A stretch of 64,000 bases of DNA from a virus: positions 1 to 64,000 of the IMG/VR virus record IMGVR_UViG_3300030090_003378, one strand, 5' to 3'. Positions 2,003 to 43,644 of the stretch are shown here, in pieces. The notes beneath the pieces are model-generated. The model ran no database searches and was not told where the DNA came from. It was given only the letters and a program-made list of their open reading frames with translations. The translations under genes were made by a program, and so were the position numbers. Within the stretch, counting starts at the first letter, position 1. Each line of letters begins with the position of its first letter.

Positions 2003-2590
2003 CTATTCAGTATCATCATCTTCGACGAATTGTATATCTTGGCCGGGTTCCACATAAAAATCTTGGTCTTTTGTACGTCTTTCTCTTACTCTATCTCTAA
2101 TACTTGTGCCGCTAAGATTTCTATGACTACCACTTGTGGGCCGTGGGTTAAATGCTTCTTCCCAAGAACCATCATCTGTTGTATCACCCTCTCTTAAAGT
2201 GATAGTAATGCTTTGATTATCTCCTTCCACAAAATCACCTTCTTGTTTAAAATAATCTTTTAACGTATCAAAGAAATAATCAGGACCGCCATGTTTCATA
2301 AAAATACTATGGTTAATTAAAATTGTTCCTTTGATACCATTTGTTTCTACCTCAGGTCTATATGATACTGCATTAAACCCACCCATAGCAGGTATACCTT
2401 TATTCATTAAAGCAATAGGAATTTTTGAAATACCTCTTTTATTGTATGTTTTTTCAACTAATTTATCCAATGCTTGTAGCCATTTTAGATTTTGTGAATT
2501 GGAAAGAATTTCCTGAGCCGCTTCTTTTTTGGCTTGCATCATAGATGCACCGCCTTGAAACTTCAGAATATCAAACCATTGTTCAGTCAA
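2003..2590 (-). CDS. Tail-region protein with W-x-D-I-L-K N-terminal tag
   Basis: 195 residues, starting at a TTG codon with AAAGGAG upstream. The N terminus EQWFDILKFQGG is a variant of the tag found on many late proteins here. The rest is mixed alpha/beta with a Gln/Arg-rich tail and an acidic end (FVEDDDTE). The segment around residues 90-135 (GTILINHSIF... TITLREGD) may be a small beta domain. It sits between the tail tube and the chaperones. No family recognised. Confidence 0.85.
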   Translation of the reverse strand: MTEQWFDILKFQGGASMMQAKKEAAQEILSNSQNLKWLQALDKLVEKTYNKRGISKIPIALMNKGIPAMGGFNAVSYRPEVETNGIKGTILINHSIFMKHGGPDYFFDTLKDYFKQEGDFVEGDNQSITITLREGDTTDDGSWEEAFNPRPTSGSHRNLSGTSIRDRVRERRTKDQDFYVEPGQDIQFVEDDDTE

Positions 2591-2615
2591 TTAAATCATT
2601 ACTCCTTTTTCTCTT

Positions 2616-3008
2616 TTATTCAGGTTGCTTAAGCAATATTGCACTATGTTTGTTAAAAGTGTATGTATCATCAACAGTATATCCTTCAGCCTTGTATAAA
2701 TCTCCAATTACCTTAAGAATATATTGTCGATTATTACCAAGTTTTTCTATTACATCAGTTCCAATAGTATAATAGTTATAACCATTTTTATTTCTACCTA
2801 CTTTATCGCCTCCATCATCATTAAAACCAATGAATATAGACCTTCGTTCTGTCGCAGGACGTGAGCGTATATGCGCTGTTAATTTAGGTTCAATTACTGA
2901 TTTCTCATATTCAATAATTGCTTGTTTATATTCTTCATCTCTATTAACCCTAGTATCTAAGGGCATAGGCATTTTCTCTAATTTACTTTTTAATATATCT
3001 TTCCACAT
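2616..3008 (-). CDS. Tagged late protein (MWKDILK) of unknown function
   Basis: 130 residues from ATG 3008, which has GGTGATTAAA directly upstream; a GTG at 3017 is possible but less well placed. It opens with MWKDILKSKLEKMP, the shared late-protein tag. The body has an Arg-rich stretch (HIRSRPATERRS) followed by a predicted alpha/beta region with Tyr-rich strands (NYYTIGTDVIEKLG). It lies immediately after the tail-tube gene. No family recognised. Confidence 0.85.
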   Translation of the reverse strand: MWKDILKSKLEKMPMPLDTRVNRDEEYKQAIIEYEKSVIEPKLTAHIRSRPATERRSIFIGFNDDGGDKVGRNKNGYNYYTIGTDVIEKLGNNRQYILKVIGDLYKAEGYTVDDTYTFNKHSAILLKQPE

Positions 3009-3013
3009 TTTAA

Positions 3014-5341: not shown

Positions 5342-5363
5342 TTTATCACCTATTTACATACTG

Positions 5364-5999: not shown

Positions 6000-6222
6000 A
6001 AATCTCACCTAACCTTTGCATTAATTCTTTCTTTTGTTCTTGCATAATAATTTTTTCTTTGTATTCGCTTGATGATTCTACCCCATAATGAGCATCAATT
6101 AAGTCAAATAAATCTTCATTTTGTTTTCTAACATTATTAGCAATATCTGTTGCCATACCTGCAAGTGCATTTAGGTCATTAATTTTTGATTGAGGAAATG
6201 GATTTTTAATAATTTTTTTCAT
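5989..6222 (-). CDS. Small helical connector-region protein
   Basis: 77 residues, mostly helical and charged (ANNVRKQNEDLFDLIDAHYG), ending GEIFGG. It overlaps its neighbours by a few bases on both sides, which indicates translational coupling within the connector block. No family recognised. The terminal Gly-Gly is not taken as a ubiquitin-like end because the body is helical. Confidence 0.75.
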   Translation of the reverse strand: MKKIIKNPFPQSKINDLNALAGMATDIANNVRKQNEDLFDLIDAHYGVESSSEYKEKIIMQEQKKELMQRLGEIFGG

Positions 6223-6467
6223 TTTAACTTCCCCTCAATTTCATCTATCTGTCTTTTAAGTTCAGCCATTTCTTTTTCTCTTTGTTTACCATACCTTTTG
6301 TAGTCGAAATTTTTTCTTTTTTTAGTATATTGGTGGACACTTTTAATCCTATTATATTCTTTTTGAAGGCGTTCTAACTCTCTCATTAATGGAGTACGTT
6401 TAGCAGACTCTATTATTTCTCTAGCCCTAACGTCATAATCACGTTTAAGAATATTTTCCCAACTCAC
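6219..6467 (-). CDS. Small tagged coiled-coil protein (MSWENILK)
   Basis: 82 residues if started at GTG 6467, which puts the tag exactly at the N terminus (MSWENILKRDYDV) with a GTGATT site 5 nt upstream; GTG 6476 is the longer alternative. The remainder is a basic coiled coil (KRYGKQREKEMAELKRQIDEIEG). It lies between the connector protein and the tail terminator. No family recognised. Confidence 0.8.
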   Translation of the reverse strand: MSWENILKRDYDVRAREIIESAKRTPLMRELERLQKEYNRIKSVHQYTKKRKNFDYKRYGKQREKEMAELKRQIDEIEGKLK

Positions 6468-6468
6468 A

Positions 6469-11713: not shown

Positions 11714-13006
11714 TCACTGAAGGTTTGTAATTTTTCCTTGTCCCTTGAAGAATGTACAAACTGTTTCTCCGATAGTCCGATAAAGACCTCGGTTTCCGAG
11801 TTTGTTAACACCGAATGGGTCGCCCGAATCAATTCCACCTTCAAAGTATTCTGTTGGCTTCAATGTAGCAAAGTGCAAATGGTCTGTATCAAGGATAAGA
11901 ATATCGCTCAATCCTGAACCACTACCTGTTGATGGCATCTCTTTGCATGGGATTAGGGGAATGTCGTGATAGGTAGCAACCTTGAATCCGACTTCTCGAC
12001 CCTTTACACCCTTTACACCGTTAGCAGTTGGCATAATTTCTGCACGTCCCATATATCGCTCTTGAGATTGTAGCAATTCGCCCAATGCTTGAATTGTGTC
12101 ATATCCTGTTAGCATAACCTTTGGAGAACCACCGCGAATCTGTAACTCACGTAGAGCAGTATTCAAAGTGTTCAAAGTTAGGTTTCGGCGTGAAGCATAA
12201 GATGTTCCGTAGTCCACATAAGCATCTAACCATGCATCAGTAGCACCTGTAACACGAGTTTGTCCGTATAGAGTAACTAATGTTGCGTTACCTGTCTGTG
12301 TTCCTGCCATTAGCACACCGCCATCCATAGCATCTACTTCAGCATAACTTGAAACGATTTTGTATAGCGAAGTAATGTTGTTACCGATACCTGATACCGA
12401 TGAACCACTATCAATGTGTGACTCAAGAGGCATAAGTAGCATATGATTCATAGCCTCAGCGTGGGAAACACCAATTTCCTCACGGTAAGCCGACATAATA
12501 TCACCAATGCCATCATCAATCTTTGCCATAGCAGCAGCCAACTCGGAAATCTCGAATTGATGTGCAATAGTCTTTGGACTTGCATATAGTGTATCGAATA
12601 CAGGCTTTAGTGGACTCAAAACATCAGCCGCCGCAGTAGTAAATGATGCGTTTTCTGCAACACCACCAATTTGTGCTTCTGTTAGTGAACCATGACCTGT
12701 TCCACCTGTTGTAGACCAAGTATCTCCTGAACCACCTAATGCACGCTCTTTGAGAACTCGCCATCCACTTGAGGACCACGGCTTTTTAGGTAGCATAGCC
12801 AAAGCGTTAATTTCACGGTTTAGCATAGACCATACTTTCTGACCATAGATAAGGTTGTAAAGTGCATTTGCTGAAAATGCGCCTGAATCGTGAGCGGTGT
12901 GAATACCACTCTCAATACCTGCACTCTTCAAAATGCTACTGTTAAAGTTACCATATGTTGCTCTTTCTAAATCTTCGATTGTTCTAATTGTATTAATTCC
13001 TGACAT
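11714..13006 (-). CDS. Major capsid protein, HK97 fold
   Basis: 430 residues from ATG 13006, behind ATGGTGATTATT; a start 4 codons upstream is possible. The N-terminal ~40 residues are helical and probably removed or remodelled at maturation. Then come the typical long spine-helix region and P-domain (ALRELQIRGGSPKVMLTGYD) and an A-domain with SDILILDTDHLHFATL, ending with a strand (GLYRTIGETVCTFFKGQG). It follows the protease/scaffold gene, the invariant order in HK97-type viruses. Codon use is more GC-rich than its neighbours, consistent with high expression. Forms the head shell. Confidence 0.85.
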   Translation of the reverse strand: MSGINTIRTIEDLERATYGNFNSSILKSAGIESGIHTAHDSGAFSANALYNLIYGQKVWSMLNREINALAMLPKKPWSSSGWRVLKERALGGSGDTWSTTGGTGHGSLTEAQIGGVAENASFTTAAADVLSPLKPVFDTLYASPKTIAHQFEISELAAAMAKIDDGIGDIMSAYREEIGVSHAEAMNHMLLMPLESHIDSGSSVSGIGNNITSLYKIVSSYAEVDAMDGGVLMAGTQTGNATLVTLYGQTRVTGATDAWLDAYVDYGTSYASRRNLTLNTLNTALRELQIRGGSPKVMLTGYDTIQALGELLQSQERYMGRAEIMPTANGVKGVKGREVGFKVATYHDIPLIPCKEMPSTGSGSGLSDILILDTDHLHFATLKPTEYFEGGIDSGDPFGVNKLGNRGLYRTIGETVCTFFKGQGKITNLQ

Positions 13007-13040
13007 AATAATCACCATTTAATTTAAATTCCGAACCTAA

Positions 13041-13781
13041 TTAAAGGCCACGGACCTCCCTTGCCAAATCGTTAACTTGTTCCCAAGATAATTCGTGGAG
13101 ATTCTGCATCTTTAGTAGAACATCTTCAGGAACCGCATTTGCAGCGTTAACTGATTCAACCTGCTTTGCGATAACTGTGTTGTTATTCTCAAGAGATTTT
13201 CGTAGTTCTGAAAATTCGTTCTTTAGAGATGCGATTTCTGCGGAAGCATCATACTTTGACTTTGCTACTGCATCAGATTCACTCTTAAGTTCTGCCTGAT
13301 AGCGAGCCTCAAACTCTTGCTTAATAACTTCGTATGCGCGAGCCTCTTCTTGCTCTGCCTTAAACTGTGCATATGCTTTAGCGAGATTCTCATGGCTTAG
13401 GTCAAGAGTGGTAATGCTCTCAGACTTTCGCTTGATATACTCGTTATATTCACTGTCTGCATGGGTAGCAACGGTTCCCTCAATTGAGTTACCTGTTGCA
13501 TTGTGACCATATACAACTGAATCAGCCTTCATTTCATGCATTTCTTTACCATACCCTGCATCTTTGTCAGAATACATGGCATCTTTGTCAGAATACATTG
13601 CTTTGTCGTCTGCGCCATCATCAGCATCTTCGTCTTTTGCGACTTCTGCTTTTGTTGCTTCTTCAGAATCGGTCATTTCCATATCCTCTTCTTCTTCCTT
13701 GCTAATTACACTTACTTGATTTCGGAGTTCTGATACAATATCATTAAACTCGTTCAATGCTTTTTCTATTTCGTCTGTCAT
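13041..13781 (-). CDS. Scaffold protein from internal in-frame start
   Basis: An in-frame ATG at 13781 (MTDEIEKALNEFND) is preceded by AAAAAGGTGAATAAA, a better ribosome-binding site than many start codons in this operon. It would make a 246-residue scaffold without the protease, the same nested layout as lambda C/Nu3. Composition: acidic N-terminal part, coiled coil of about 130 residues, and a C-terminal capsid-docking-like helix with one Trp. The internal start is visible in the sequence; its use is inference. Confidence 0.6.
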   Translation of the reverse strand: MTDEIEKALNEFNDIVSELRNQVSVISKEEEEDMEMTDSEEATKAEVAKDEDADDGADDKAMYSDKDAMYSDKDAGYGKEMHEMKADSVVYGHNATGNSIEGTVATHADSEYNEYIKRKSESITTLDLSHENLAKAYAQFKAEQEEARAYEVIKQEFEARYQAELKSESDAVAKSKYDASAEIASLKNEFSELRKSLENNNTVIAKQVESVNAANAVPEDVLLKMQNLHELSWEQVNDLAREVRGL

Positions 13782-14339
13782 TTTATTCACCTTTTTGTCT
13801 TGTTTTACAATGTTGAATTTTGCTTCGGGGTTAATCCCTTCCTCGCATATTGTGATTTCGTGTAGTTCTAATTTGTCTATTTCTTTATATGTGCCAATTT
13901 CGGGGTCATATCTGTTTGCTTTATGTAACGCTTGACCTCCAATACTGAATGAACGTAATTTTCCTCTCCTAATATCTCTTGCTACTTCTTTAGCCTTTTC
14001 AATATCACTTCTCATCTTAATAACTACAAAAAATCCTGTATCATCTACACCTGTTTTTAATACATTACCTTTAGAATCTCTCCAATTATCTACTACTTCT
14101 CCTACTTGAACATTGGAATGGGTAATCATAACGTTTTTGTAATCCCCCTTCATGAATTTTGATGATGCATCCCGTAGTGCTTCTAATGTGATTAAGTCAT
14201 TCTGTTTATCTACTACATCTACTGAAGCATAACCGGCAATAACCAAATCATTTGATTTTCCTTTTAGAATAACTAATTCGCTTCCGGCCCCTAAATGCTT
14301 ACCCATCATGCTTGGCTCGATAGCAATTGCGCTACTCAT
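13041..14339 (-). CDS. Prohead protease fused to scaffold
   Basis: 432 residues. Residues ~20-180 are a herpesvirus/HK97-type serine protease (S78/U35 clan): beta strand VIAGYASVDVVDKQNDLI, candidate His74 in MITHSNVQVG, and candidate Ser130/132 in LRSFSIGG. Residues ~187-432 are a highly charged scaffold with acidic repeats (AMYSDKDAMYSDKDAG) and long coiled coil, ending in a Trp-containing helix LSWEQVNDLAREV. The scaffold fills the procapsid and the protease digests it before DNA packaging. An internal start makes the scaffold on its own as well. Directly upstream of the capsid gene. Confidence 0.85.
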   Translation of the reverse strand: MSSAIAIEPSMMGKHLGAGSELVILKGKSNDLVIAGYASVDVVDKQNDLITLEALRDASSKFMKGDYKNVMITHSNVQVGEVVDNWRDSKGNVLKTGVDDTGFFVVIKMRSDIEKAKEVARDIRRGKLRSFSIGGQALHKANRYDPEIGTYKEIDKLELHEITICEEGINPEAKFNIVKQDKKVNKMTDEIEKALNEFNDIVSELRNQVSVISKEEEEDMEMTDSEEATKAEVAKDEDADDGADDKAMYSDKDAMYSDKDAGYGKEMHEMKADSVVYGHNATGNSIEGTVATHADSEYNEYIKRKSESITTLDLSHENLAKAYAQFKAEQEEARAYEVIKQEFEARYQAELKSESDAVAKSKYDASAEIASLKNEFSELRKSLENNNTVIAKQVESVNAANAVPEDVLLKMQNLHELSWEQVNDLAREVRGL

Positions 14340-17997: not shown

Positions 17998-18239
17998 CAA
18001 ATATCACCTGTTAATTTTCTTACTAAGTCATCTACTTCGGTCCATTCCATTTTAGCCAAAGTGTCTGCATTTGGAACACCGTTTGTATTTGTGTTAATTG
18101 ATGGGGTCGGAGAATTTGTAACCACCAACCCTGATTTCATCAACACATTATCTGCGCTAAATACTGTGTATTCTAATTGCTTTACTCTATCTACTAATTC
18201 TTTTAATAGTAACGTTAATTCATTGTTTTCTTCTGTCAT
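17997..18239 (-). CDS. Small protein with scaffold-like C-terminal Trp motif
   Basis: 80 residues: an N-terminal coiled coil (LLLKELVDRVKQLEYTVF), a Ser/Thr/Asn-rich linker, and a C terminus MEWTEVDDLVRKLTGDI. The last stretch lines up with the scaffold C terminus (LSWEQVNDLAREVRGL) at Trp, Val, Asp-Leu and Arg, so both may dock on the same capsid surface. Start and stop overlap both neighbours. No family recognised. Confidence 0.8.
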   Translation of the reverse strand: MTEENNELTLLLKELVDRVKQLEYTVFSADNVLMKSGLVVTNSPTPSINTNTNGVPNADTLAKMEWTEVDDLVRKLTGDI

Positions 18240-26911: not shown

Positions 26912-27781
26912 TTATTTACCTCCAAATAGCCGTTTAATAAAATTTCTATATTCTTCAGTATTTATCTCAGGGTGGGTTCCATATCTTGCTAGAGCCTGTT
27001 TTAAATTTTGGGGAAAGTTTTTCTTCACAAACCTATTTTTACCTTTGGCCCAAGACACTTCCATTCTTAACAGTTTTTCTCTATCCCCTTTAGTTTTAGC
27101 CCATTTTTCTACATATGATATTCTACTTCTAATTAATGCTAATCTTTCTGTATCTTTGTATGTCGTAACAGGAAAAATACTACTACCCTTCCCCTGATAT
27201 TGCCTCCATGTTTCGTTATCAACTTCTATGTTTAAATTGACATGGGTAAGCATATCTTTATACGCATCATAAATTGATTCAGGGTATTCTGAAATAAATG
27301 CCGCATATTCAAGGTGGTGCATATCAAACTCACCGGGATTTTCTCCGAAAAACTTTTTGTCTTCTGCTACATGATGTGCTGAATGTCCTGCTTCGTGCAT
27401 TACTACTCTCTTAAATGCTTTAGCCGTTAATTCTTCTAATAACGGGGTGGGCAAATATTTTTCATTTCCTTTTGCATCATATTCGCGTTTGATTTGTCCA
27501 TTTTCATCCTGTTCAAAAAACAAATATTTACCTTTTCTTTTAGAAAAAATGCCCATACCCTTTTCTTTTAATTTATTTCTGACCAACTGAAAAACTTTAT
27601 TAGGATTTATCTTAATCGTGCCTTGTTTAAGTTCCAATACTACATTATCATCTTCATCTCTTTTTAACTCATAAGACAAACCTAATTGGCGAGAAAATTG
27701 TGGTGGAATATACTGCCCAATTGGTCCCATACCAAAGTCCCAAACTACTTCAGTTGCTTTTAAAATATTTTGCCAACTCAT
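26912..27781 (-). CDS. Tagged zinc metallopeptidase-like protein (HEAGH)
   Basis: 289 residues starting MSWQNILKA, a full match to the late tag. The helix VVMHEAGHSAHH (His129, Glu130, His133) is the HExxH zinc-binding motif of zincin peptidases, and EYAAFISEYPESIYDAY about 30 residues later may supply the third ligand. The rest is basic with many Lys/Arg. A packaged peptidase could process virion proteins or act on the host after entry. Motif is clear; substrate unknown. It overlaps its neighbours by one or a few bases. Confidence 0.7.
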   Translation of the reverse strand: MSWQNILKATEVVWDFGMGPIGQYIPPQFSRQLGLSYELKRDEDDNVVLELKQGTIKINPNKVFQLVRNKLKEKGMGIFSKRKGKYLFFEQDENGQIKREYDAKGNEKYLPTPLLEELTAKAFKRVVMHEAGHSAHHVAEDKKFFGENPGEFDMHHLEYAAFISEYPESIYDAYKDMLTHVNLNIEVDNETWRQYQGKGSSIFPVTTYKDTERLALIRSRISYVEKWAKTKGDREKLLRMEVSWAKGKNRFVKKNFPQNLKQALARYGTHPEINTEEYRNFIKRLFGGK

Positions 27782-28023
27782 TATCCCACTTCAATTTTAA
27801 CTCTATGATACCCTTCTCTTTCACCAACACTTAGTATTTTGAATGCTCTCCTTTGGTCCAATAATAATCCCTTAATATCTTTAATATAATTTCTTGCATT
27901 ATCGTCATTCATAAAATCAACAATTATAACATTATTTTTAAATGTGCCTAACCCGCCATATTTTTTTGCTAATTCAGCGTAGTCTTTAGGTAGTGCTAAT
28001 TTTAGAATACTTTCCCAAGTCAT
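27781..28023 (-). CDS. Small tagged alpha/beta protein (MTWESILK)
   Basis: 80 residues: MTWESILKLALPKDYAEL tag, then a compact alpha/beta body with NNVIIVDFMNDDNARNYIKD and a final strand YHRVKIEVG. The pattern suggests a small ferredoxin-like or beta-alpha-beta fold. Start and stop are coupled to both neighbours. No family recognised. Confidence 0.85.
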   Translation of the reverse strand: MTWESILKLALPKDYAELAKKYGGLGTFKNNVIIVDFMNDDNARNYIKDIKGLLLDQRRAFKILSVGEREGYHRVKIEVG

Positions 28024-33103: not shown

Positions 33104-33385
33104 TTAATCACCTAAATTATGTGGGGATTTTACCCCATGTTTTTGTTCATACATAGCCCTTCTTGCTCTTTCAATTTGAGATTGTTGGCCGGGAGAACGC
33201 TCACCTTGTATATTACGTTGTAATTGTTTTAGGTATTTTAATCTTTTCTCCACCGCTTTAATTTCAACATCTATTTCTTCTTCAGTCATAATGACTTCTT
33301 TATCAGGTCTATACCCTGCTTCTTCCATACGTTCCTCGAATGTTGTTTTAGTAATGTTAAAGTTTTTAGTTTCTTTCCAAGTCAT
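33104..33385 (-). CDS. Small tagged coiled-coil protein (degenerate tag)
   Basis: 93 residues from ATG 33385 (MTWKETKNFN), a diverged form of the late tag with Trp kept. A helical coiled coil follows (EEEIDVEIKAVEKRLKYLKQ) and an Arg/Gln-rich tail. Tight spacing to both neighbours. No family recognised. Confidence 0.8.
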   Translation of the reverse strand: MTWKETKNFNITKTTFEERMEEAGYRPDKEVIMTEEEIDVEIKAVEKRLKYLKQLQRNIQGERSPGQQSQIERARRAMYEQKHGVKSPHNLGD

Positions 33386-33396: not shown

Positions 33397-33579
33397 TCAC
33401 TTGTTATGTTGATAATCTTGTTGTGTAGTTCCTGTTCGTGAAAGGTGCATTCTTACTACGGCCAATATTTGCATAAGAGTATTTTTAGGGTTAGTGCTTG
33501 ATTCAATTGCTTGTCTAACTTGCGCTAACACTTGCTCATCTGTAACTTCGTATTTTTTAATTGTGTTTTCCCAATTCAT
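33397..33579 (-). CDS. Small tagged helical protein (MNWENTIKK)
   Basis: 60 residues from ATG 33579, preceded by GTGATTAAA. Tag MNWENTIKKYEV, then a compact helical body (EQVLAQVRQAIESSTNPK and MQILAVVRMHLSR). Overlaps the upstream gene. No family recognised. Confidence 0.8.
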   Translation of the reverse strand: MNWENTIKKYEVTDEQVLAQVRQAIESSTNPKNTLMQILAVVRMHLSRTGTTQQDYQHNK

Positions 33580-33584
33580 TTTAA

Positions 33585-33905
33585 TCACTGTTCCTCATCA
33601 TATTCAAGTAGGGCGCGTTCTCCTTCTAGTGCTTCATCATAAGATAAATAATGGCGTGATTCACGAGGGTTAATATCTCTCACATCAGTTCCAAATCTAT
33701 CTTTGTCTAATTTTTGTTCTGTGTAAATACCTTGATTACCCAACTTAGTCATTAGATTTAGAATCATACCCTTATGTCCTACCTTTTCAGGAAAATCATA
33801 TTCCTTAATGTCGCCCTCTTCATCCATTCTTTCTGTTTGTAAATGTTTTCGCCAAGGTTTCATTTCATCGTGAATATTACCCTTACTAATTTTTTCTTCC
33901 CACAT
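33585..33905 (-). CDS. Small late protein with weak Trp tag (MWEEKISK)
   Basis: 106 residues; N terminus MWEEKISKGNIHDE is a loose version of the tag. The rest is charged with a central GHKGMILNLMTKLGNQGIYT that could be a winged-helix recognition region. Ends acidic (LLEYDEEQ). Start follows GGGGTGAAGAATA. No family recognised. Confidence 0.8.
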   Translation of the reverse strand: MWEEKISKGNIHDEMKPWRKHLQTERMDEEGDIKEYDFPEKVGHKGMILNLMTKLGNQGIYTEQKLDKDRFGTDVRDINPRESRHYLSYDEALEGERALLEYDEEQ

Positions 33906-34141
33906 TATTCTTCACCCCTTAATAAATCTTCAACGTATTCTCGCAGTTTATCAATATTCTCTTCGGCTTCTGCTACTGCGTCTACAACTTTTGCGGGTAA
34001 TGATGCCCCAAGATTCATTGTTTCTAAACTCTCCTGATATTCTAATACTAATTGGATTGCGTGTTCTATTTGCCTAAATAGACTATCTCCTTCTTCTTCG
34101 CCAAATTCATCAGCAATTTTAATTATGTCAGCCCAATTCAT
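33905..34141 (-). CDS. Small tagged acidic helical protein (MNWADIIK)
   Basis: 78 residues: MNWADIIKIADEF tag, then helices rich in Glu and Ala (LPAKVVDAVAEAEENIDKLREY). Shares single-base stop/start overlaps with both neighbours. No family recognised. Confidence 0.8.
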   Translation of the reverse strand: MNWADIIKIADEFGEEEGDSLFRQIEHAIQLVLEYQESLETMNLGASLPAKVVDAVAEAEENIDKLREYVEDLLRGEE

Positions 34142-34527
34142 TGTTCTCGCCTCATTTGATTTTCTTTAGATGTTTTATCATCATCAATTGGGCCACCCTT
34201 AGCCCATGTGTAGCAGGTTCTATCTTTATGACATTTAAAATCATGCATCCAACAGTAACCTAAATCTCCTTCAAGTGGCATACATTCACTCATTCTTGGA
34301 GATATGTCAAATGCGACACAATTAGAACATCTTGATTTCTTAGCAACTTCAGGTGATGTGTTCCAATGTTCTGCTGCATCTACCCAATATTGGTCATCTG
34401 ATAAATTAAGGGGGCCATATCGAATATCTTCATCTTTAATTGCAGCATCTCTATTTTTAGTATTAACTTTTAAATCTTGAGTAGCGCGTGGGCAACTCAA
34501 TTCCTTTAGTAAAATTTCCCAACTCAT
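34138..34527 (-). CDS. Tagged Cys-rich protein (MSWEILLK)
   Basis: 129 residues from ATG 34527, which has the operon-typical GTGATACA in front; an upstream ATG at 34563 overlaps the previous gene. After the tag, Cys residues occur as CSNC (about 82-85), C (about 95), GYCWMHDFKCH and TCYTWAKG, a spacing seen in a family of small viral Cys-rich proteins and reminiscent of high-potential iron-sulfur proteins. It may hold a metal cluster. Function unknown. Confidence 0.8.
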   Translation of the reverse strand: MSWEILLKELSCPRATQDLKVNTKNRDAAIKDEDIRYGPLNLSDDQYWVDAAEHWNTSPEVAKKSRCSNCVAFDISPRMSECMPLEGDLGYCWMHDFKCHKDRTCYTWAKGGPIDDDKTSKENQMRREQ

Positions 34528-34531: not shown

Positions 34532-34735
34532 TCACTTCGGTTTATGTGTGTAAATATCTCCATCCTTATGCATAAAGATTTTACCTTCCTTTTCTAACTT
34601 AGATAAGACTCTTTTAATTTCAGATTCTTTTCCGAATTGCTTTAGGTTTTTCATGCCTAATGCCCCACCTTCTTTTTTAATTTCAGCAAGTATTTTTTCT
34701 TCAATATCTGCCTTTAGTATATTTTCCCAACTCAT
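34532..34735 (-). CDS. Small tagged winged-helix protein (MSWENILK)
   Basis: 67 residues. Tag MSWENILKADIEEK leads directly into a winged-helix-like domain: helix ILAEIKKEGG, recognition helix SEIKRVLSKLEKEG and a wing KIFMHKDGDIYTHK. A DNA-binding cargo protein is a reasonable guess. Coupled to the TerS-like gene upstream. Confidence 0.85.
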   Translation of the reverse strand: MSWENILKADIEEKILAEIKKEGGALGMKNLKQFGKESEIKRVLSKLEKEGKIFMHKDGDIYTHKPK

Positions 34736-35394
34736 TCTAACATCTCCGCAACATTATCTCTAATTTCTGTCCAAATCTCAGGGTATTGTTCAATTAAAAC
34801 TCGCTGAATAACTTCAACCTGTTTAACGATTACAGTTTCCTCCTTCTTGTGGATTAATTCACCCTTGAATGATAGTAAGTATTTCAATGATTCCCGTATC
34901 TCTTTTGCTAATTTTGTAAGGCTATCAATTTGCTTATTGGATAACTCGGTGTCCTCTAATAGTTCTCCCACTTTATCTTGCAGTATTTTAACGTTATTAC
35001 TCAAAAGGTCTATTTCATTTAAGTCCATTCTTGCTATATCAATTGCGGCATGTTGTTGCACAATTGGTTTTAAGTGATTCTTAAGATGTAATTGTATAAC
35101 ATCGACGGAACAACCTAAATGTTTTGCTGCTTCTGAAGGGGTCATTGTACCTTCTCTAATTTGAACTTCTAAATCGGCTCTATTAGGATGAGTGCATAAT
35201 GCACAGGATGGATTACTGCCTTTATTGTAGTTATCAATATGATTCTGCATATGTTTCTTTGCTGTACCTGCCCACCAACCTTCTTGTTTATCTAATTCGT
35301 CGCAAGTTAAATTACCTGCTAAAATATCTGCTTCTAAACCATCACGCTCAGGGTGTTGGCAAAACTTACAGGACTTTCTAACTTTACGACTCAT
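34732..35394 (-). CDS. Probable terminase small subunit (two zinc-HTH modules)
   Basis: 220 residues. Two repeats of a Cys/His module with helix-turn-helix: CKFCQHPERDGLEADILAGN with a following HMQNHIDNY, then CALCTHPNRADLEVQIREGT followed by AAKHLGCSVDVIQLHLKNHL. This module is typical of viral small terminase and related DNA-recognition proteins. The second half is a coiled coil (about 130-220) suited to oligomer formation. TerS selects viral DNA and hands it to TerL, encoded 8 kb downstream. It lacks the late tag, in line with an assembly rather than cargo role. Confidence 0.65.
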   Translation of the reverse strand: MSRKVRKSCKFCQHPERDGLEADILAGNLTCDELDKQEGWWAGTAKKHMQNHIDNYNKGSNPSCALCTHPNRADLEVQIREGTMTPSEAAKHLGCSVDVIQLHLKNHLKPIVQQHAAIDIARMDLNEIDLLSNNVKILQDKVGELLEDTELSNKQIDSLTKLAKEIRESLKYLLSFKGELIHKKEETVIVKQVEVIQRVLIEQYPEIWTEIRDNVAEMLE

Positions 35395-36475
35395 TTCGTA
35401 ATATTCCCTCCCATGATATAGGTTGCATTTTTTGTAAGTTAATTCCCGGAGGTGCTTGCTCAGGCGTTGTTCCGGGTTTTTGGAAAGTGCTTAATTCATC
35501 CCCCATAACTTCTCTAATTAGTTTGTTAATAGCCACATTTGATTTAGGCCATTTGAGTTTGTATTGTTTTAAATTTTTACTTCCGGGCATATCCTTAAAC
35601 CCAATCATCATTTCTTCAAGAATAGCAATATCATTTGGTGTTGCTGTGAAAACCTTGTTACTGAAAGCGTCATTTAATCTTGTAGGCATAGGTGTAGTTC
35701 TGCGCCCTTTAGGGTAAATATTTGGGTCATTTAAAATCTCAAGAACGTGCTGTTTCATGGTGCTAATATCCTTTAATCTTCCGGGGGTCCGCTTAACATT
35801 AAACAAGGCAACGGTGCCACGCTTTTGTTTTACTTTTTCTCCCTTTTTACCAATGCTTTTCTTTGCAGTTTTAACAACCTTCATAATGCCATCTTTATTG
35901 TTAGCAATACATTCTAACAGGGGTGGTTTAGCCTTACCTTCGTTTTTATTCCACCATTTATCATCTGCCGCTACAATTTTATGGTTTTCACCATTTACTT
36001 CATTATCCCACTCAAGGTATTTGTTATATGCTGTTGTGCGATAGTGACCATGAACTTCTGCCCTAACTATTTCGGGCTTTTTTGGGTCATCGGTTTCAGC
36101 AAAATATACAACAGTTCTGAACGGGATGTTTTGCGGGTTCTTTTTTGGGTCTTTTAAAACTGCTTCCATTTCATCTACTGCTTTATTAAATAGTTCAATT
36201 TCTTTAGCAGTAATAGTTCCTGATAATAGATTTTGAATTGCTTTGACTAACTCACCTAAACCATCGAAAGAAGCAGTTCCACTTCTTGATTGTTCGGGTT
36301 CACCGTGACGTTCTGCTTGACCTAATACTGTATCGGGTGTTTTACCTTTTCTATTACCATGACCACCAACGATTCCCCAATTAGCACCGTCAGACCATTT
36401 ATTAACCCATTCTTCTAATCTTTGTTGAACACCACGTTCATTCCACTCTTGGTCAAAACTTATTACATCACTCAT
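35384..36475 (-). CDS. Late protein carrying the tag at its C terminus (ISWEGILRNES)
   Basis: 363 residues. It lacks the N-terminal tag but ends QPISWEGILRNES, the same peptide at the other end. An N-terminal region with GIVGGHGNRKGKTPD (about 33-48) is followed by a mixed alpha/beta body; VYFAETDD and AEVHGHYRTTAYNKYLEWD lie near 115-150. The basic middle (KKSIGKKGEKVKQKRG) could bind nucleic acid. No family recognised. The C-terminal copy shows that the tag works as a short motif, not as part of a fold. Confidence 0.85.
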   Translation of the reverse strand: MSDVISFDQEWNERGVQQRLEEWVNKWSDGANWGIVGGHGNRKGKTPDTVLGQAERHGEPEQSRSGTASFDGLGELVKAIQNLLSGTITAKEIELFNKAVDEMEAVLKDPKKNPQNIPFRTVVYFAETDDPKKPEIVRAEVHGHYRTTAYNKYLEWDNEVNGENHKIVAADDKWWNKNEGKAKPPLLECIANNKDGIMKVVKTAKKSIGKKGEKVKQKRGTVALFNVKRTPGRLKDISTMKQHVLEILNDPNIYPKGRRTTPMPTRLNDAFSNKVFTATPNDIAILEEMMIGFKDMPGSKNLKQYKLKWPKSNVAINKLIREVMGDELSTFQKPGTTPEQAPPGINLQKMQPISWEGILRNES

Positions 36476-36783
36476 TCATTACACCTACACTTTGTTTTTT
36501 TATCGTCGCATTTTGGGCAACTACCATAAGTTATATTATGTATATTAGGTTGAAAGCCGGTATTAGTAGTTAAACCTATCCCTGCTTCTTTTTTTGCTTC
36601 ATCATACTGTTGTTCTCTATCTTCAATATTGTGCTGTTCATCTTTAATCACTTCCCTTAGTATATCCATTGTTGATAATGGAACGCCTAATTCCTTTCCT
36701 TTTCTAATGAATTCTTTTACTGCGATTTCCCAATTAGTAATATCTTTATCTGTTGTCTTTTTTAAATAATCTTCCCAAGTCAT
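36472..36783 (-). CDS. Small tagged protein with Cys cluster (MTWEDYLKK)
   Basis: 103 residues: MTWEDYLKKTTDKD tag, a helical middle (FIRKGKELGVPLSTMDILRE) and a C-terminal zinc-like cluster CPKCDDKKTKCRC. ATGA-type overlaps with both neighbours. No family recognised. Confidence 0.85.
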   Translation of the reverse strand: MTWEDYLKKTTDKDITNWEIAVKEFIRKGKELGVPLSTMDILREVIKDEQHNIEDREQQYDEAKKEAGIGLTTNTGFQPNIHNITYGSCPKCDDKKTKCRCNE

Positions 36784-37631
36784 TCATCTTCCTCCTTTAT
36801 ACGTTGTTCTAATCTTGTAAATTTTGGTTCTCTTTTAATACCCATTTCTTTAGCCCGTTCTCTTTTTCCTCTTTCTACTGCTAAGGTTTTTTTCCAACTG
36901 TGTAAGTTTTGTTTTCTTTTTTGTTCTGCTTCCTTTTCCTCTTTCTCTTTCTTTTCTCGCTCTATTTCACTCAAAAGTTTTCTTGATGCTGTCCTATATC
37001 CCCAACTATCCCATTTGGGATTACCATAAAGTTTTACATAATCTTCCCAACTATTAATTTCAGGTTCTGCTGTCCAAATCATAGTTGCTCTAACATATGC
37101 CTCATTCCCGTAAGGTTGGAAACCTCTAACAAAAAATTTCTTGACTAAATTTTGACTAACTAAGTTATCTAATATTACCTGTGCGAATTTCCAAGTAAGT
37201 GCATTATAATCCTGTATTGCTCTAGTCATTCTTAGTGGGTCAGACCCGTAATCTATTACTACAATACTACCATCATCTCCCCGAACTTGAACAGGTTGCT
37301 TGAAATCACTCATCGCCTCTCTTTGTTCTTCTTCTATATCTTTGATTTCTTGTTCACTTATTAATGTAAAAAACTCATCTCTATAACCTAATATGTCTAT
37401 TAATTCTTGATTTCCCTTCTTAATTATTTGACCTACTTTGCCACTTCCAATATCATCATTACCTTGTATTATCTTAACTTTTTTAAGGTAATTTAACACA
37501 TCGTTTTGAGATTTGCTTAAATTCTCACGCTTAGTTTGTTCGTATTCTTGTCTTGCTTCTTCAACAATTTCAGGTGCATAACGTTCTGCCTCCTCTTGAG
37601 GGGTGACTTTTAATATATTTTCCCAAGTCAT
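36780..37631 (-). CDS. Tagged late protein with charged coiled coil (MTWENILK)
   Basis: 283 residues: tag MTWENILKVTPQEE, helical region to ~70, a globular middle (residues ~85-205, with VRGDDGSIVVIDYGSDPLRM and FFVRGFQPYGNEAY), and a C-terminal Lys/Glu/Arg coiled coil (about 225-283). The middle part has an alpha/beta pattern without a recognisable active site. Overlaps the next gene by 4 bases. Confidence 0.85.
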   Translation of the reverse strand: MTWENILKVTPQEEAERYAPEIVEEARQEYEQTKRENLSKSQNDVLNYLKKVKIIQGNDDIGSGKVGQIIKKGNQELIDILGYRDEFFTLISEQEIKDIEEEQREAMSDFKQPVQVRGDDGSIVVIDYGSDPLRMTRAIQDYNALTWKFAQVILDNLVSQNLVKKFFVRGFQPYGNEAYVRATMIWTAEPEINSWEDYVKLYGNPKWDSWGYRTASRKLLSEIEREKKEKEEKEAEQKRKQNLHSWKKTLAVERGKRERAKEMGIKREPKFTRLEQRIKEEDE

Positions 37632-38068
37632 CTGTTATACCCCATGTATCTTTCTATATCTGCTGTGCTATAAAGCCAAAATGGAATTCCTTCTTTCAAT
37701 CCTCTGTCGAATAATTCTAATTGTTCTATTAATTTATCAGGTGCATCACTTTCTACTGCTAAATCATACCACACATCAAAGTATTCCTCATATTCTTTGG
37801 TTGGGGATTCATCCCAAATACCTATCATTGCTAATGACTCTTGACGCATTTTATCTACATAAATGTTTAGGTCATCTAAATTAGTAAACTCGATAGGTTT
37901 ATCTACATCAATAATTGAACCTGCAAAAGCGTGTCTAAAATCTATGGGCATTTTATCTAAATTTCTAATATGTGTTGTAACATCTTGAATTAAACCCATA
38001 AAATATTGTCGCCATTCACCGTCAGGGACTTCTGTGGGAATTTCTCTTTTAATAATATTAAACCACAT
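37628..38068 (-). CDS. Tagged late protein (MWFNIIKRE)
   Basis: 146 residues with tag variant MWFNIIKREIP. The rest is acidic and helical (TNLDDLNIYVDKMRQESLAM; YEEYFDVWYDLAVESDAP) and ends IERYMGYNR. No family recognised. Part of the same gap-free tagged cluster. Confidence 0.8.
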   Translation of the reverse strand: MWFNIIKREIPTEVPDGEWRQYFMGLIQDVTTHIRNLDKMPIDFRHAFAGSIIDVDKPIEFTNLDDLNIYVDKMRQESLAMIGIWDESPTKEYEEYFDVWYDLAVESDAPDKLIEQLELFDRGLKEGIPFWLYSTADIERYMGYNR

Positions 38069-38414: not shown

Positions 38415-38416
38415 GC

Positions 38417-38683
38417 TTACCAATCCCTGCAAGCCATACATCTTGCTGAATAATCTCCCCTTTTGCAAGTTTTACAATTATGTCTTGCTCTAAAAGATTT
38501 CTTACGTTTTGTATTGCCTTTCTTACCTGTTACTGAAACACCTCTTTGGCCCCAATGAACTCTTTTATAACCACCTTTTCCATTAGGAACACAAGCCATC
38601 CATTTCTTACCTTTACGGTCAGAACTTGTTTTACCTGTGCGCTTAGTGCATTGACCCGCTTTTAATAAATCAAACCAACTCAT
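38417..38683 (-). CDS. Tagged, highly basic Cys-containing protein (MSWFDLLK)
   Basis: 88 residues: MSWFDLLKAGQ tag followed by a very basic body with KKWMACVPNGKGGYKRVHWG, then KKSFRARHNCKTCKRGD and CMACRDW at the end. The KVHWG...KSFRARHNC...CRDW pattern recurs in small viral proteins of many tailed and giant viruses. Basic charge plus tag suggests a DNA-associated protein packed in the head. Related in style to the products at 40708 and 40992. Confidence 0.85.
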   Translation of the reverse strand: MSWFDLLKAGQCTKRTGKTSSDRKGKKWMACVPNGKGGYKRVHWGQRGVSVTGKKGNTKRKKSFRARHNCKTCKRGDYSARCMACRDW

Positions 38684-40099: not shown

Positions 40100-40100
40100 A

Positions 40101-40370
40101 TTAATCTCTCCAATAATATAATGTTTTCACGTTGCCGGTGGTTCCCACTGGATTTCTTTGCACATGTATATTAGGATGATTTTGTAAAAATTTTCTTACT
40201 CTTTTATTTGACCAATTTCCTAAATCTAAACTTGTTAGGGCTTTTAATTTAAGACCTGAAGGATTTCTTTTCAATACTTCAATAATTCTGTCTTCCATTT
40301 TTGGCTTTGGGACGTGTGGTTTTCTAACCCAATCATCTTTTTTAGCCTTAAGTGTATCTTCCCAACTCAT
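40101..40370 (-). CDS. Small tagged winged-helix protein (MSWEDTLK)
   Basis: 89 residues. Tag MSWEDTLKAKKDD, then a basic linker, then a winged helix: MEDRIIEVLKRNPSGLKLKA, a recognition helix SNKRVRKFLQNHP and a wing ending VKTLYYWRD. Probably binds DNA. Overlaps the neighbour by 4 bases. Confidence 0.85.
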   Translation of the reverse strand: MSWEDTLKAKKDDWVRKPHVPKPKMEDRIIEVLKRNPSGLKLKALTSLDLGNWSNKRVRKFLQNHPNIHVQRNPVGTTGNVKTLYYWRD

Positions 40371-40672
40371 TTAACTTCCCCCTTTAATTTACTAATAACA
40401 TCTTCTAAATCCATAATAACTTCTCTCATTTGATTTCTATACCTAATGCCTGTTTGGTTATCTAAACCTGCCATCTCAAATTTATCTATTAGTGTGGTAA
40501 ATTGCTTACCCAAGTGAATAACTTTTTGATTGTATTCGCGCATATTATGTTCTGATTGTAGTTCAGGGCGATTTTCCATTAAATCATCTACTACCGCTTC
40601 ATCTTCAAAACCACGCTTAACTCTTACTTTGGTTTTGTGAGGAACTTCTTGTAAAGTATCTGCCCATCCCAT
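40367..40672 (-). CDS. Small tagged helical protein (MGWADTLQE)
   Basis: 101 residues from ATG 40672, preceded by GGTGGTTATATT; the longer reading frame upstream overlaps the previous gene. Tag variant MGWADTLQEVP, then charged helices ending with a short coiled coil (MEDVISKLKGEVK-like). No family recognised. Confidence 0.8.
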   Translation of the reverse strand: MGWADTLQEVPHKTKVRVKRGFEDEAVVDDLMENRPELQSEHNMREYNQKVIHLGKQFTTLIDKFEMAGLDNQTGIRYRNQMREVIMDLEDVISKLKGEVK

Positions 40673-40707
40673 AATATAACCACCGTCTATTTTCAATATA
40701 AAGGTTA

Positions 40708-40986
40708 CTATTTTTTCTTTCCCCATTTTTTACCTTTACCTTTTTGTCCACAGGCAGAAGGTGTAGGTCTACAAGAAGGATATTTAGAGCGTTTATCTCC
40801 TTTAGAACGACCACAGGCACTACAAGTTTTACGTCCTGTTTTCTTATCTTTACGACAAGTATTACAATCTACCCAGCCGCCTTTACTTCCTTTAGCCCCT
40901 TTACGACCAAACCAATCTCTAAGACTTGTTTCAGAAGAAGGCTTTGCAGTTAATTTGCGTTTTTTTAATACTTCTTCCCAAGTCAT
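40708..40986 (-). CDS. Tagged basic Cys-rich protein (MTWEEVLKK)
   Basis: 92 residues from ATG 40986 behind GTGATTATT. After the tag MTWEEVLKKRK come Cys pairs CNTC and CSAC, and a SKYPSCRPTPSACG element, embedded in Lys/Gly-rich sequence that ends GKGKKWGKKK. The K-x-YPxCRP element is shared by small viral and bacterial basic proteins of unknown role. Likely zinc- and DNA-binding head cargo. Confidence 0.85.
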   Translation of the reverse strand: MTWEEVLKKRKLTAKPSSETSLRDWFGRKGAKGSKGGWVDCNTCRKDKKTGRKTCSACGRSKGDKRSKYPSCRPTPSACGQKGKGKKWGKKK

Positions 40987-40991
40987 AATAA

Positions 40992-41153
40992 TCACTTCTT
41001 AGATTTGCCGTAATTAGCACAACCCTTTTTTCTACATTGTACTACTCTACCTGAAGCATATGCTGAAGGCCAAACTTTTGCTGTTGCTTTGACCTTTCTA
41101 GCACAACAGTCTAGTTTCTTTTTTTTCTTCTTCTTCAAAATATCTTCCCACAT
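40992..41153 (-). CDS. Short tagged basic Cys protein (MWEDILK)
   Basis: 53 residues, found by reading the gap between the neighbours. It starts MWEDILK followed by a run of Lys, then LDCCARKVKATAKVWPSAYA and VVQCRKKGCANYGKSKK. Start follows GGTGATACT. It resembles a miniature of the 40708 product: tag, polybasic stretch, Cys pairs. Likely DNA-associated head cargo. Confidence 0.75.
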   Translation of the reverse strand: MWEDILKKKKKKKLDCCARKVKATAKVWPSAYASGRVVQCRKKGCANYGKSKK

Positions 41154-41157
41154 AGTA

Positions 41158-41577: not shown

Positions 41578-41578
41578 A

Positions 41579-41986
41579 TCAAACCACCTCTTTGTCGCAC
41601 TCCTTCCATTCCTCGTATATTTTTCTCCACTCTAAATATTCAGGATTAATTTTCATACCTTTAGGTGGTTTTTCATGTGAAATATCATGCATTCGCTTGA
41701 CTATACTGAGCAATTCACCGCAATCGTACTGTTCCAGAGGTGGGATAGCAATTTCTATTCCTTTTGCTTCTTCCTCTCTTCCTTCTTTTTCATATCTCCT
41801 TTGTACATTTCCCATTAATTCTATTACATGATTTCTTGCCACTTCACAACAACTATCTGTAACATCCATTTCACCTGCTAACTCAAAATCTATCACTTTA
41901 GAATTAGGGGCTTGTAATTCTCTATCAGGTTTCCTCTCCATCATGGGTTCAGCACCAAGTCTTTTAAGAATATCAAACCAAGTCAT
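41579..41986 (-). CDS. Tagged late protein (MTWFDILK)
   Basis: 135 residues: MTWFDILKRLGAEP tag, then a helical body with a CCEVARNHVIELMGNVQRR segment (about 46-64) and YDCGELLSIVKRMHDI. Ends acidic. No family recognised. Confidence 0.85.
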   Translation of the reverse strand: MTWFDILKRLGAEPMMERKPDRELQAPNSKVIDFELAGEMDVTDSCCEVARNHVIELMGNVQRRYEKEGREEEAKGIEIAIPPLEQYDCGELLSIVKRMHDISHEKPPKGMKINPEYLEWRKIYEEWKECDKEVV

Positions 41987-42510
41987 CGTTGACCACCTTC
42001 AATTATGTCTAACATTTCTCTAAGGTATTTATGAATTTTAAGTGCTTTACGTCTATGCCGTGGATGTTCATGTAACTTAGATGCCACTTCCATTGAATTT
42101 AATAATGACTGGCGTAAATCTTTATTTATTTGTTTTGCTTCTTCTACTTCTTCAGGGGTTCTTTGACCTACAACATATCTGTCTAACACTTCTTTAATAT
42201 AGCCAATTCTAATATGTTGTTGTAGTGTGCCTACTGATAATCTTTTAAATTCCCCTCTATTGTATTGGTCCCAAACATAATCCAATAAATGTTCCCTGTC
42301 AATTTCAGGATTAAGAATCTTGACGCCCCAATCATATTTTGAAGCAGTTTCTCTATTCATTCTATCTTTATCATCATATTTTACTTTAGGTCTACCTACG
42401 GTATAATCTTCACCACGGGCTTGAAGCCAAAAATCAGCATTGGGCATATTTGATTTAACGTAAAAATTATCTGTTTTGAAAGGCGCTTTCAATGTATTCT
42501 CCCAATTCAT
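41983..42510 (-). CDS. Tagged late protein (MNWENTLK)
   Basis: 175 residues from ATG 42510 with GGAAGGAG immediately upstream. Tag MNWENTLKAPFK, a beta-containing N-terminal half (NADFWLQARGEDYTVG) and a helical C-terminal half (TPEEVEEAKQINKDLRQSLL). Ends with LDIIEGGQR. No family recognised. Confidence 0.85.
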   Translation of the reverse strand: MNWENTLKAPFKTDNFYVKSNMPNADFWLQARGEDYTVGRPKVKYDDKDRMNRETASKYDWGVKILNPEIDREHLLDYVWDQYNRGEFKRLSVGTLQQHIRIGYIKEVLDRYVVGQRTPEEVEEAKQINKDLRQSLLNSMEVASKLHEHPRHRRKALKIHKYLREMLDIIEGGQR

Positions 42511-42920
42511 CTCCTTCCTCTCCCATCTCCCCAATTATATGAACCTCTAACTAAATTTGGCAACCACTTATTAGCGTTGTTAATTATCAGGTCTATTGCA
42601 GGGGCCACATTAACTACGACCTGTTCCCAATTAACTTCATTTAAGTCCTCTTTGGGCATAGCAGCAAAATCAACATTTGTTTTAATTTCTTGAAATGTTA
42701 TTTGTTTAAAGGCTTCAGGTAAACTGCCCCAAAATTCATTAAGAGCATCCTTCTTAATTTCATATCTCTTTACTTCACCTGTTTGTTTATCGTGAATTAC
42801 GTGCCACGCTCCTAAATGCATAAGTAAATCTTGAATGTGTTGCACAAATTTACTGTCCTTTCTAAGAGCAGTAGAAATGTATCGTTCCAAGTCGAATTTT
42901 AGAATTTTTTTCCAAGTCAT
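42507..42920 (-). CDS. Tagged late protein (MTWKKILK)
   Basis: 137 residues: MTWKKILKFDLERY tag, then an alpha/beta body (FVQHIQDLLMHLGAWHVIHD) and a helical segment ending in a Gly/Arg-rich tail (GDGRGRR). The first 14 bases of the next gene overlap its end. No family recognised. Confidence 0.85.
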   Translation of the reverse strand: MTWKKILKFDLERYISTALRKDSKFVQHIQDLLMHLGAWHVIHDKQTGEVKRYEIKKDALNEFWGSLPEAFKQITFQEIKTNVDFAAMPKEDLNEVNWEQVVVNVAPAIDLIINNANKWLPNLVRGSYNWGDGRGRR

Positions 42921-43240
42921 GTTAAATCCCTCCGTTGTTTATCTTCAGGGGATATTCCTGCTTTTTCTAATATTAGGTTAATTTGGGCAAGAATAAATTC
43001 AGGAGTCATAAATGACACAATATTTTCATCATCAAATGTTTCAATTGCACGTTCAATTAAATCAGCCCATTGTAAAACGTCTTTTTCTGCTTGTCCTCTT
43101 AACTTTGGTAAGAAATCAAATCTAATTCTTCTTTTGGCTTGTATTAAATCATCCTTAGACAACGTTCCTTCAGGAAACCATCTTTTTGTAGAATCTCCAA
43201 CATTAGGAAATTCGTATTTTAGAATTTTTTTCCAAGACAT
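42917..43240 (-). CDS. Tagged late protein (MSWKKILK)
   Basis: 107 residues from ATG 43240, whose GGTGAAATA site lies in the end of the previous gene. Tag MSWKKILKYEFPN, then helices (RFDFLPKLRGQAEKDVLQWA) and an end rich in Arg. Shares KKILK(F/Y) with the following gene product, so the two tags may be a recent duplication. No family recognised. Confidence 0.85.
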   Translation of the reverse strand: MSWKKILKYEFPNVGDSTKRWFPEGTLSKDDLIQAKRRIRFDFLPKLRGQAEKDVLQWADLIERAIETFDDENIVSFMTPEFILAQINLILEKAGISPEDKQRRDLT

Positions 43241-43644
43241 TATTTCACCCACTGTAATTTAACAGCCCCTGTTGCTTCATCTTGACCTACCAAATTATAT
43301 TGAATTCCTGCTATCTGTCTAAGTGCATCATTAGCATTATTAAGGATTGTTGTTATCATTATTTGATATTGATTACCTAAATCATCACTTAATTGCTGTA
43401 ACTCTTTTTTATCTTCAAGATTTTCTGAACCCTCATCCCACAACTTCTGCATAATTTCGTTTAAGTCAGTAATTTGGGTATTAAAGTGTTTTTCTATCTG
43501 CCAAATCGGAAAACCCCTTTTATATTCTACAATTTTTTCCCAATCTAAATCTTTAAGCCATTTTTTGTGTTTATCAGACCAAGAAAATATATCTGCATTC
43601 CAAATAAAGCGAGTATTTTCTTTTTTCAGAATTTTTTCCCACAT
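43240..43644 (-). CDS. Tagged late protein (MWEKILKK), first of the tagged series
   Basis: 134 residues beginning MWEKILKKENTRFIW. Helical and Trp-rich (DIFSWSDKHKKWLKDLDWEK), with a coiled region (LQQLSDDLGNQYQIMITTIL). It is the most upstream gene of the tagged cluster and is preceded by an AT-rich promoter-like region. No family recognised. Confidence 0.85.
   Translation of the reverse strand: MWEKILKKENTRFIWNADIFSWSDKHKKWLKDLDWEKIVEYKRGFPIWQIEKHFNTQITDLNEIMQKLWDEGSENLEDKKELQQLSDDLGNQYQIMITTILNNANDALRQIAGIQYNLVGQDEATGAVKLQWVK

Follow-up and report, generated by a model that had tools for sequence, protein, structure and literature searches.

A tryptophan-centred terminal peptide shared by late proteins of a probable archaeal tailed virus resembles the end of its scaffold and is a likely capsid-targeting signal

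In phage T4, ten N-terminal residues suffice to package the internal proteins, with residues 4 and 7 driving targeting and residues 8 and 10 affecting processing (PMC9026906). The scaffold of phage P22 binds the coat through a C-terminal helix-turn-helix, and cargo joined to part of that scaffold is packaged (PMC9962691), while in herpesviruses a C-terminus common to the UL26/UL26.5 protease-scaffold and scaffold binds the coat (PMC12474303). Phage P1 DarB is packaged with an N-terminal head-targeting signal of more than nine residues (PMC9024508). Here we describe a peptide of eight residues, hereafter the tag, that begins many late proteins encoded in bases 1-64000 (the window) of the 94,082-base virus record IMGVR_UViG_3300030090_003378. 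An earlier note, made from the sequence of this stretch, had pointed out a shared N-terminus on about 25 late proteins and proposed that it targets them to the capsid by binding the scaffold, as in T4. We found that the tag can stand at either end of a protein and that it resembles the C-terminus of the viral scaffold. The tag is likely to target proteins to the capsid, with mimicry of the scaffold as the best mechanism on present evidence.

Direct translation of the 26 genes listed in the earlier note bore out the shared N-terminus: 18 carry the strict tag, defined as M-x-W-x-x-[IVL]-[LI]-K at the N-terminus with I, V or L three positions after the Trp, five carry near variants and three carry weak ones (Table 1). 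The variants with Thr at the +3 position are credible since the same form was seen in relatives (28 cases), and the internal starts that had been proposed to expose the tag are backed by good ribosome-binding sites. In a fixed-start scan for the tag behind a methionine within the first 30 residues of an open reading frame (ORF), 16 tagged ORFs were observed in the window, compared to a mean of 0.05 and a maximum of 1 in 200 shuffles; the strict DNA pattern matched 9 times against 0.06 expected. No convincing tag was found in the early region, where the sole plus-strand match, a TTG at 49684, falls within a hydrophobic ORF and seems spurious; the rest of the record (64001-94082, loci L002/L003) held no matches. 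The capsid protein, the portal and the large terminase subunit (TerL) lack an N-terminal tag, as had been stated.

Relatives were collected as TerL-related loci and by a pattern scan of viral contigs. They revealed a widespread tag, present on at least 752 distinct ORFs in related viral contigs. The bodies of these proteins, minus the tag, fell by BLASTP into at least 362 families, 245 of them singletons among the matches listed, a count that is approximate since low-complexity sequence chains some larger families. The logo from one member per family read M-[S/T/N]-W-[E/K/F/Q]-[D/N/S/E]-[I/V]-[L/I]-K, and its information was near background right after the Lys. Selection for the logo demanded Lys or Arg, and hence a separate unbiased count was made, in which Lys followed M[STND]W..[IV][LI] in 492 of 512 cases and Trp occupied its position in 492 of 507. 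Trp and Lys are thus near-invariant across families while the bodies diverge, so that the tag is kept in orthologs. The Ile, Leu and Lys of the tag are encoded by many different codons, and because codons vary freely and conservation ends at the Lys, selection acts on the peptide.

In the TerL-related loci, 153 matches were N-terminal, 3 C-terminal and 8 internal. The tag is restricted to the late strand: within 27 large records, all but one of 292 strict matches lay on the strand of the protease and capsid genes (291, and 1 on the other), and a reversed-pattern control gave 2 matches in the same records. A search of 84,980 prokaryote genomes returned 36 isolated, scattered matches and zero clusters, revealing neither a host source nor proviruses; because cellular genomes hold no clusters, the tag was not copied from a common host signal. 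The strict tag was not found in HVTV-1, archaeal virus vir335, DSL-LC01, T4 or one pelagiphage. The exact tag peptide strings had no match in the text of 5.39 million papers, and no earlier description of the tag was found in literature coverage that excludes subscription papers and preprints.

Some relatives carry tandem arrays of tagged paralogs (L068:2201-7966, L067:2794-6437, L158:424-4960, L155 and L099:571-2642), whose members share a second motif after the tag, such as NIQISSQR or PLPDDDDEDC; these arrays suggest rapid duplication or diversification. In fam66 (HEAD-TO-TAIL family; L014, L015, L022 and L023; PAP2 phosphatase), an N-terminal tag is accompanied by an internal KSWEDILQ at an apparent domain boundary, which looks like the fusion of two tagged proteins. 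The C-terminal domain of the untagged 1062-residue protein at 18236-21424 is, in many relatives, a separate protein of 110 residues that itself begins with a tag, either MTWEDILKEE... or, in split form, MTWDFYEEGEEFILK...

The earlier note had overlooked the C-terminal motif of the protein at 35384-36475, as well as the related ends of the proteins at 13041-14339 and 17997-18239. The first of these has no N-terminal tag and ends in ...ISWEGILRNES, and a homolog of 28% identity ends in ...KDWRTVMKVVV. A Trp lies within the last 14 residues in 40 of the 49 members of this family, compared to 16% of proteins in other families, and the typical form is KKSWxxILx or KKSWxxxLWx (K-S-W-x-x-[IL]-[LW]). 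In other members the tag stands at the N-terminus, or there and at the C-terminus too, and since its position can swap ends within one family, the tag has the character of a targeting peptide. AlphaFold predicted a well-folded protein (pLDDT, the predicted local distance difference test, 87.6), in which the tag forms a short helix on a tail that is of low confidence and probably flexible. The fold had no significant match in the PDB and only three significant viral matches, all unnamed.

The protein at 13041-14339 is a prohead protease followed by an acidic linker and a coiled coil, which are typical of scaffolds. At its C-terminus, a Trp in the context M-[SD]-W-x-[DE]-[IV]-[HN] was found in 106 of 107 homologs, and a small late protein (77-100 residues; 17997-18239 in the window) ends in a like motif in all 91 homologs. 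The Met two positions before this Trp is kept in 88% of the protease-scaffolds and 99% of the small late proteins though it is no start codon, and the other positions (S/D at -1, D/E at +2, I/V/L at +3) are near the tag's own preferences. When all 106 conserved-Trp columns of 116 families were scored with the tag profile, the scaffold and small-protein columns reached 9.2 and 8.5, compared to at most 6.9 for any other non-tag column. AlphaFold modelled the scaffold with a C-terminal helix-turn-helix whose last helix opens at the invariant Trp, with the preceding Ser as a cap. A putative small terminase with a Cys-rich N-terminus (34732-35394) ends in PEVWTEIRDD, which is weakly tag-like in many homologs; this W-x-[DE]-I was not counted since it lacks an S/T/D cap. 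HVTV-1, the one such lineage examined, has the protease domain in common with these viruses and lacks both the scaffold motif and the strict tag, and use of the same tag there was therefore rejected.

We consider it reasonably probable, if well short of certain, that the tag is a capsid-targeting signal mimicking the coat-binding end of the scaffold, by which 10-26 cargo proteins per genome are loaded into the prohead. The tag would form a short amphipathic helix, with Ser, Thr or Asn as the cap, Asp, Asn or Glu in the capping-box position, and Trp, Ile and Leu on one hydrophobic face. This helix would be a copy of the one that closes the viral scaffold, whose end reads M-[S/D]-W-x-[D/E]-I and which may grip the coat shell from within during prohead assembly. 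Cargo bearing the same helix at either terminus would then take scaffold-binding sites on the coat and be trapped inside the prohead; less likely, it may join the scaffold itself instead of the coat. We infer that the tagged proteins bind the coat and enter the virion and, by analogy with T4, that they are delivered to the host. The capsid-targeting part of the earlier proposal is thus the best-supported reading, given that the tag is kept, is selected at the protein level, resembles the scaffold and has C-terminal copies. Two findings that the earlier note had named as refuting, loss of the tag from orthologs and an origin in a repeated DNA element, did not turn up. Its docking part is probably to be amended, in that the tag would not simply bind the scaffold as in T4 but use the docking helix of the scaffold itself.

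Several points weigh against this proposal. The likeness between tag and scaffold spans about six positions: the +4 position is His or Asn in the scaffold motif compared to Leu in the tag, and Lys follows at +5 in only 43% of scaffold motifs while being near-universal in tags. The scaffold model is of moderate quality (mean pLDDT 63.6, about 80 in the last helix), and coat binding by the scaffold C-terminus is carried over to this lineage by analogy. The viruses are uncultured, packaging of the tagged proteins is a prediction from sequence and models, and most of the cargo is without known function.

The alternative that survives best, though we think it unlikely, is that the tag docks as in T4, on the scaffold core or a shared dimer groove and not on the coat, so that the terminal helix is an element of self-association. 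T4 internal proteins do co-purify with the scaffold protein gp22 and are assembled in the core (PMC9026906), and self-association would equally explain the sequence common to the tag and the scaffold end. However, the scaffold C-terminus touches the coat in the best-studied tailed viruses, and the obvious self-association element here is the coiled coil, not the terminal helix.

We give somewhat less weight again to the idea that the tag directs proteins elsewhere, be it the tail, the outside of the capsid, a viral factory or some host protein. Little of the cargo has a recognized function, and the tandem tagged paralogs of L068, L158 and L067 could be surface or tail proteins. Against this, the same motif ends both the scaffold and the small head-module protein, and since these are probable prohead components a target in the head interior is favored; the lack of clusters in cellular genomes also speaks against a copy of a common host signal.

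It is very improbable that the tag serves chiefly as a site (x-[IL]-L-K) where the prohead protease recognizes and trims proteins targeted by some other part of their sequence. Beyond the near-invariance of the Lys, every one of the 107 homologs has F-x-[IVL]-[LVI]-K where the protease meets the scaffold, and at least 60 of 97 major capsid proteins (MCPs) have [IL]LK in their variable N-arm. Yet a protease site would need neither a Trp five residues before the Lys nor a helix cap, C-terminal tags often lack a downstream Lys, and the bodies have nothing else in common that could target them. Cutting by the prohead protease after the invariant Lys is the most speculative element of the scaffold-mimicry proposal itself, and is put forward because FDILK-like sequences also stand at the protease-scaffold junction and in the MCP N-arm. 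A Lys mostly precedes the C-terminal tags as well (29 of 40), and these hints are no more than suggestive; no second conserved site resembling the T4 cleavage site was found downstream of the tag up to +35. Finally, a DNA or mRNA element such as a translation enhancer or repeat that incidentally encodes the peptide can practically be set aside: many tags do follow similar GGTGAT-type ribosome sites, but synonymous codons vary freely, C-terminal copies lie far from starts, and almost no copies occur outside protein termini.

Few of the presumptive cargo proteins have known relatives. Pfam matched few of 120 tagged proteins tested and PHROGs matched nine families. A PAP2 phosphatase was recognized, and the tagged set also held a tRNA nucleotidyltransferase, a probable pentapeptide-repeat protein (L144:5247-6008) and basic proteins of the DUF5754 and DUF5872-like types; SAM lyase and a tRNA-ligase-type phosphodiesterase domain were matched weakly. 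The nucleotidyltransferase is probably encoded at L086:6432-7679, judging by its GGAVRD motif and by the Pfam and PHROG matches of the set. For the large tagged protein at 30611-32875, neither a phage match nor a Pfam family was found. Two labels given in the earlier note, ADP-ribosyltransferase and winged helix, are unproven, as Pfam returned only weak winged-helix matches for 34532 and none for most tagged proteins. Because most functions are unassigned, the cargo gives no sign of action after injection. In actinobacterial phage DSL-LC01 (L168:7659-12774), the gene directly before the capsid protease genes encodes a homolog (42.6% identity) of the tagged CPRATQD protein, and one of those protease genes includes, by eye, a stretch like DUF5872.

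Examination of the record revealed a direct terminal repeat of 257 bases, window positions 1-257 being identical to L003 14827-15083, the last 257 bases of the record; because its end repeats its start, the record is probably a complete genome. By Pfam, the late genes on the minus strand encode the prohead protease, an SU10-like MCP, portal, terminase and tail tube, and the replication genes on the plus strand encode a family B DNA polymerase, an ATP-dependent DNA ligase and an ERCC4 nuclease; an archaeal-type RFC on the plus strand was recognized by eye. The nearest named relatives of the MCP and protease domain are the haloarchaeal druskaviruses (Druskaviridae: HVTV-1, HCTV-1). Therefore, the host is probably an archaeon, and the lineage bearing the tag probably consists of archaeal tailed viruses. 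Three tRNA genes, Leu(taa), Lys(ttt) and Ala(tgc), lie at 53030-53278 and L003:1715-1787. In addition to the ATP-dependent DNA ligase at 61716-63281, a second ligase-like stretch (EKYDGMRVQLHK), of the ATP-dependent DNA ligase type by eye, lies in a late protein of 920 residues (14382-17144) upstream of the protease. A late protein of 518 residues (23296-24852) contains a LAGLIDADG-like segment (GFIDSDGYITMD), judged by eye and perhaps an inserted homing endonuclease.

Table 1. Tagged genes and related head genes in the window. All lie on the minus strand, so that each gene starts at its higher coordinate; strict, near and weak refer to the N-terminal tag.
Feature	Coordinates	Strand	Peptide	Class	Remarks
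Tagged gene	43240..43644	-	MWEKILK	strict	
Tagged gene	42917..43240	-	MSWKKILK	strict	internal ATG 43240
Tagged gene	42507..42920	-	MTWKKILK	strict	
Tagged gene	41983..42510	-	MNWENTLK	near	
Tagged gene	41579..41986	-	MTWFDILK	strict	
Tagged small basic protein	40992..41153	-	MWEDILK	strict	weak DUF5872 match
Tagged gene	40708..40986	-	MTWEEVLK	strict	
Tagged gene	40367..40672	-	MGWADTLQ	weak	
Tagged gene	40101..40370	-	MSWEDTLK	near	
Tagged DUF5754 basic protein	38417..38683	-	MSWFDLLK	strict	
Tagged gene	37628..38068	-	MWFNIIK	strict	
Tagged gene	36780..37631	-	MTWENILK	strict	
Tagged gene	36472..36783	-	MTWEDYLK	near	
Tagged winged-helix-like protein	34532..34735	-	MSWENILK	strict	
Tagged Cys-rich CPRATQD protein	34138..34527	-	MSWEILLK	strict	untagged homolog in phage DSL-LC01 head module
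Tagged gene	33905..34141	-	MNWADIIK	strict	
Tagged gene	33585..33905	-	MWEEKISK	weak	
Tagged gene	33397..33579	-	MNWENTIK	near	
Tagged gene	33104..33385	-	MTWKETKN	weak	
Large tagged protein, 754 residues	30611..32875	-	LNWQSLLK	strict	TTG 32875; tag kept in L007 and L111 homologs
Tagged gene	27781..28023	-	MTWESILK	strict	
Tagged protein with HEAGH motif	26912..27781	-	MSWQNILK	strict	
Tagged gene	26251..26910	-	MWWDVLK	strict	
Tagged gene	6219..6467	-	(V)SWENILK	strict	GTG 6467
Tagged gene	2616..3008	-	MWKDILK	strict	
Tagged gene	2003..2590	-	LTEQWFDILK	near	TTG 2590
Conserved late protein	35384..36475	-			C-terminal tag in most homologs
C-terminal tag of this protein	35393..35416	-	SWEGILRN		residues 354-361; short helix predicted at the terminus (355-362)
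Prohead protease (Peptidase_S78) fused to scaffold	13041..14339	-			acidic linker, coiled coil, C-terminal helix-turn-helix
Tag-like peptide of scaffold	13068..13094	-	ELSWEQVND		residues 416-424; invariant W419 starts last helix
Small conserved late protein, 80 residues	17997..18239	-			scaffold C-terminal motif
Tag-like C-terminal peptide of this protein	18027..18050	-	MEWTEVDD		
Major capsid protein	11714..13018	-			matches SU10_MCP; variable N-arm with conserved ILK, a possible cleavage site
Portal protein	21653..23296	-			untagged
Terminase large subunit	24830..26266	-			untagged

As a more tentative extension, which we would not yet call probable, the tag may constitute a natural, genome-wide cargo code, in which any late protein gaining an eight-residue copy of the scaffold helix at either end would become cargo (10-26 fast-exchanged proteins per genome, into archaeal hosts) and the Lys would let the protease release it from the shell. 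With the tag as a capsid-targeting signal, hundreds of uncharacterized genes in abundant environmental archaeal viruses would form one testable class, virion cargo, recognizable from eight residues, and the gain of a short helix as the route to packaging suggests fast turnover of the cargo set. The tag indicates where to look in these viruses for proteins of early infection or counter-defence, and it is a minimal peptide to try for loading proteins into a capsid. It would be the natural counterpart of both the P22 scaffold-fusion method and the T4 internal proteins.

The likeness to the T4 capsid-targeting sequence (CTS) is one of kind. Both comprise about ten or fewer N-terminal residues on unrelated, fast-evolving proteins and are linked to a prohead protease and scaffold, the protease here lying in the same late module, as in T4 (Peptidase_S78 match at 13041-14339). 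In the T4 sequences (NC_000866), the CTS is MKTYQEFIAE in IPII and IPIII and MKTFKEFTST in IPI; its T-Y-Q-E-F-I aligns with S-W-E-D-I-L of the tag, so that in both a helix-cap residue is followed by hydrophobic residues spaced i,i+3,i+4, and W3 and I6 of the tag compare to Y4 and F7 of IPIII as aromatic and hydrophobic residues three apart, a likeness of pattern only. In contrast, the T4 gp21 cleavage motif L/I-x-E is absent from the tag, which ends in I-L-K; over the 30 positions that follow, no Glu is conserved. Unlike in T4, the tag is centred on Trp, marks 10-26 cargo genes per genome and is also used at C-termini, and the scaffold itself ends in the motif. We therefore take the tag to work like the T4 CTS without being homologous to it, and do not class it as a member. 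The P1 DarB signal is likewise N-terminal, but it is longer and has no consensus common to other Dar proteins. DSL-LC01 has counterparts of domains that bear the tag in the present viruses, located within or next to its capsid protease genes. The herpesvirus UL26/UL26.5 pair, as here, combines a protease-scaffold fusion with a separate scaffold-type protein sharing its C-terminal end, although no cargo with copies of the scaffold end is described there (PMC12474303). In P22 scaffold-fusion loading, cargo bears the coat-binding end of the scaffold and is co-assembled; here, cargo shares M-[SD]-W-x-[DE]-[IV] with the scaffold C-terminus and would bind the coat in the same manner. The P22 fusions are man-made and employ a long scaffold fragment, whereas loading by the tag would be natural and need only about eight residues.

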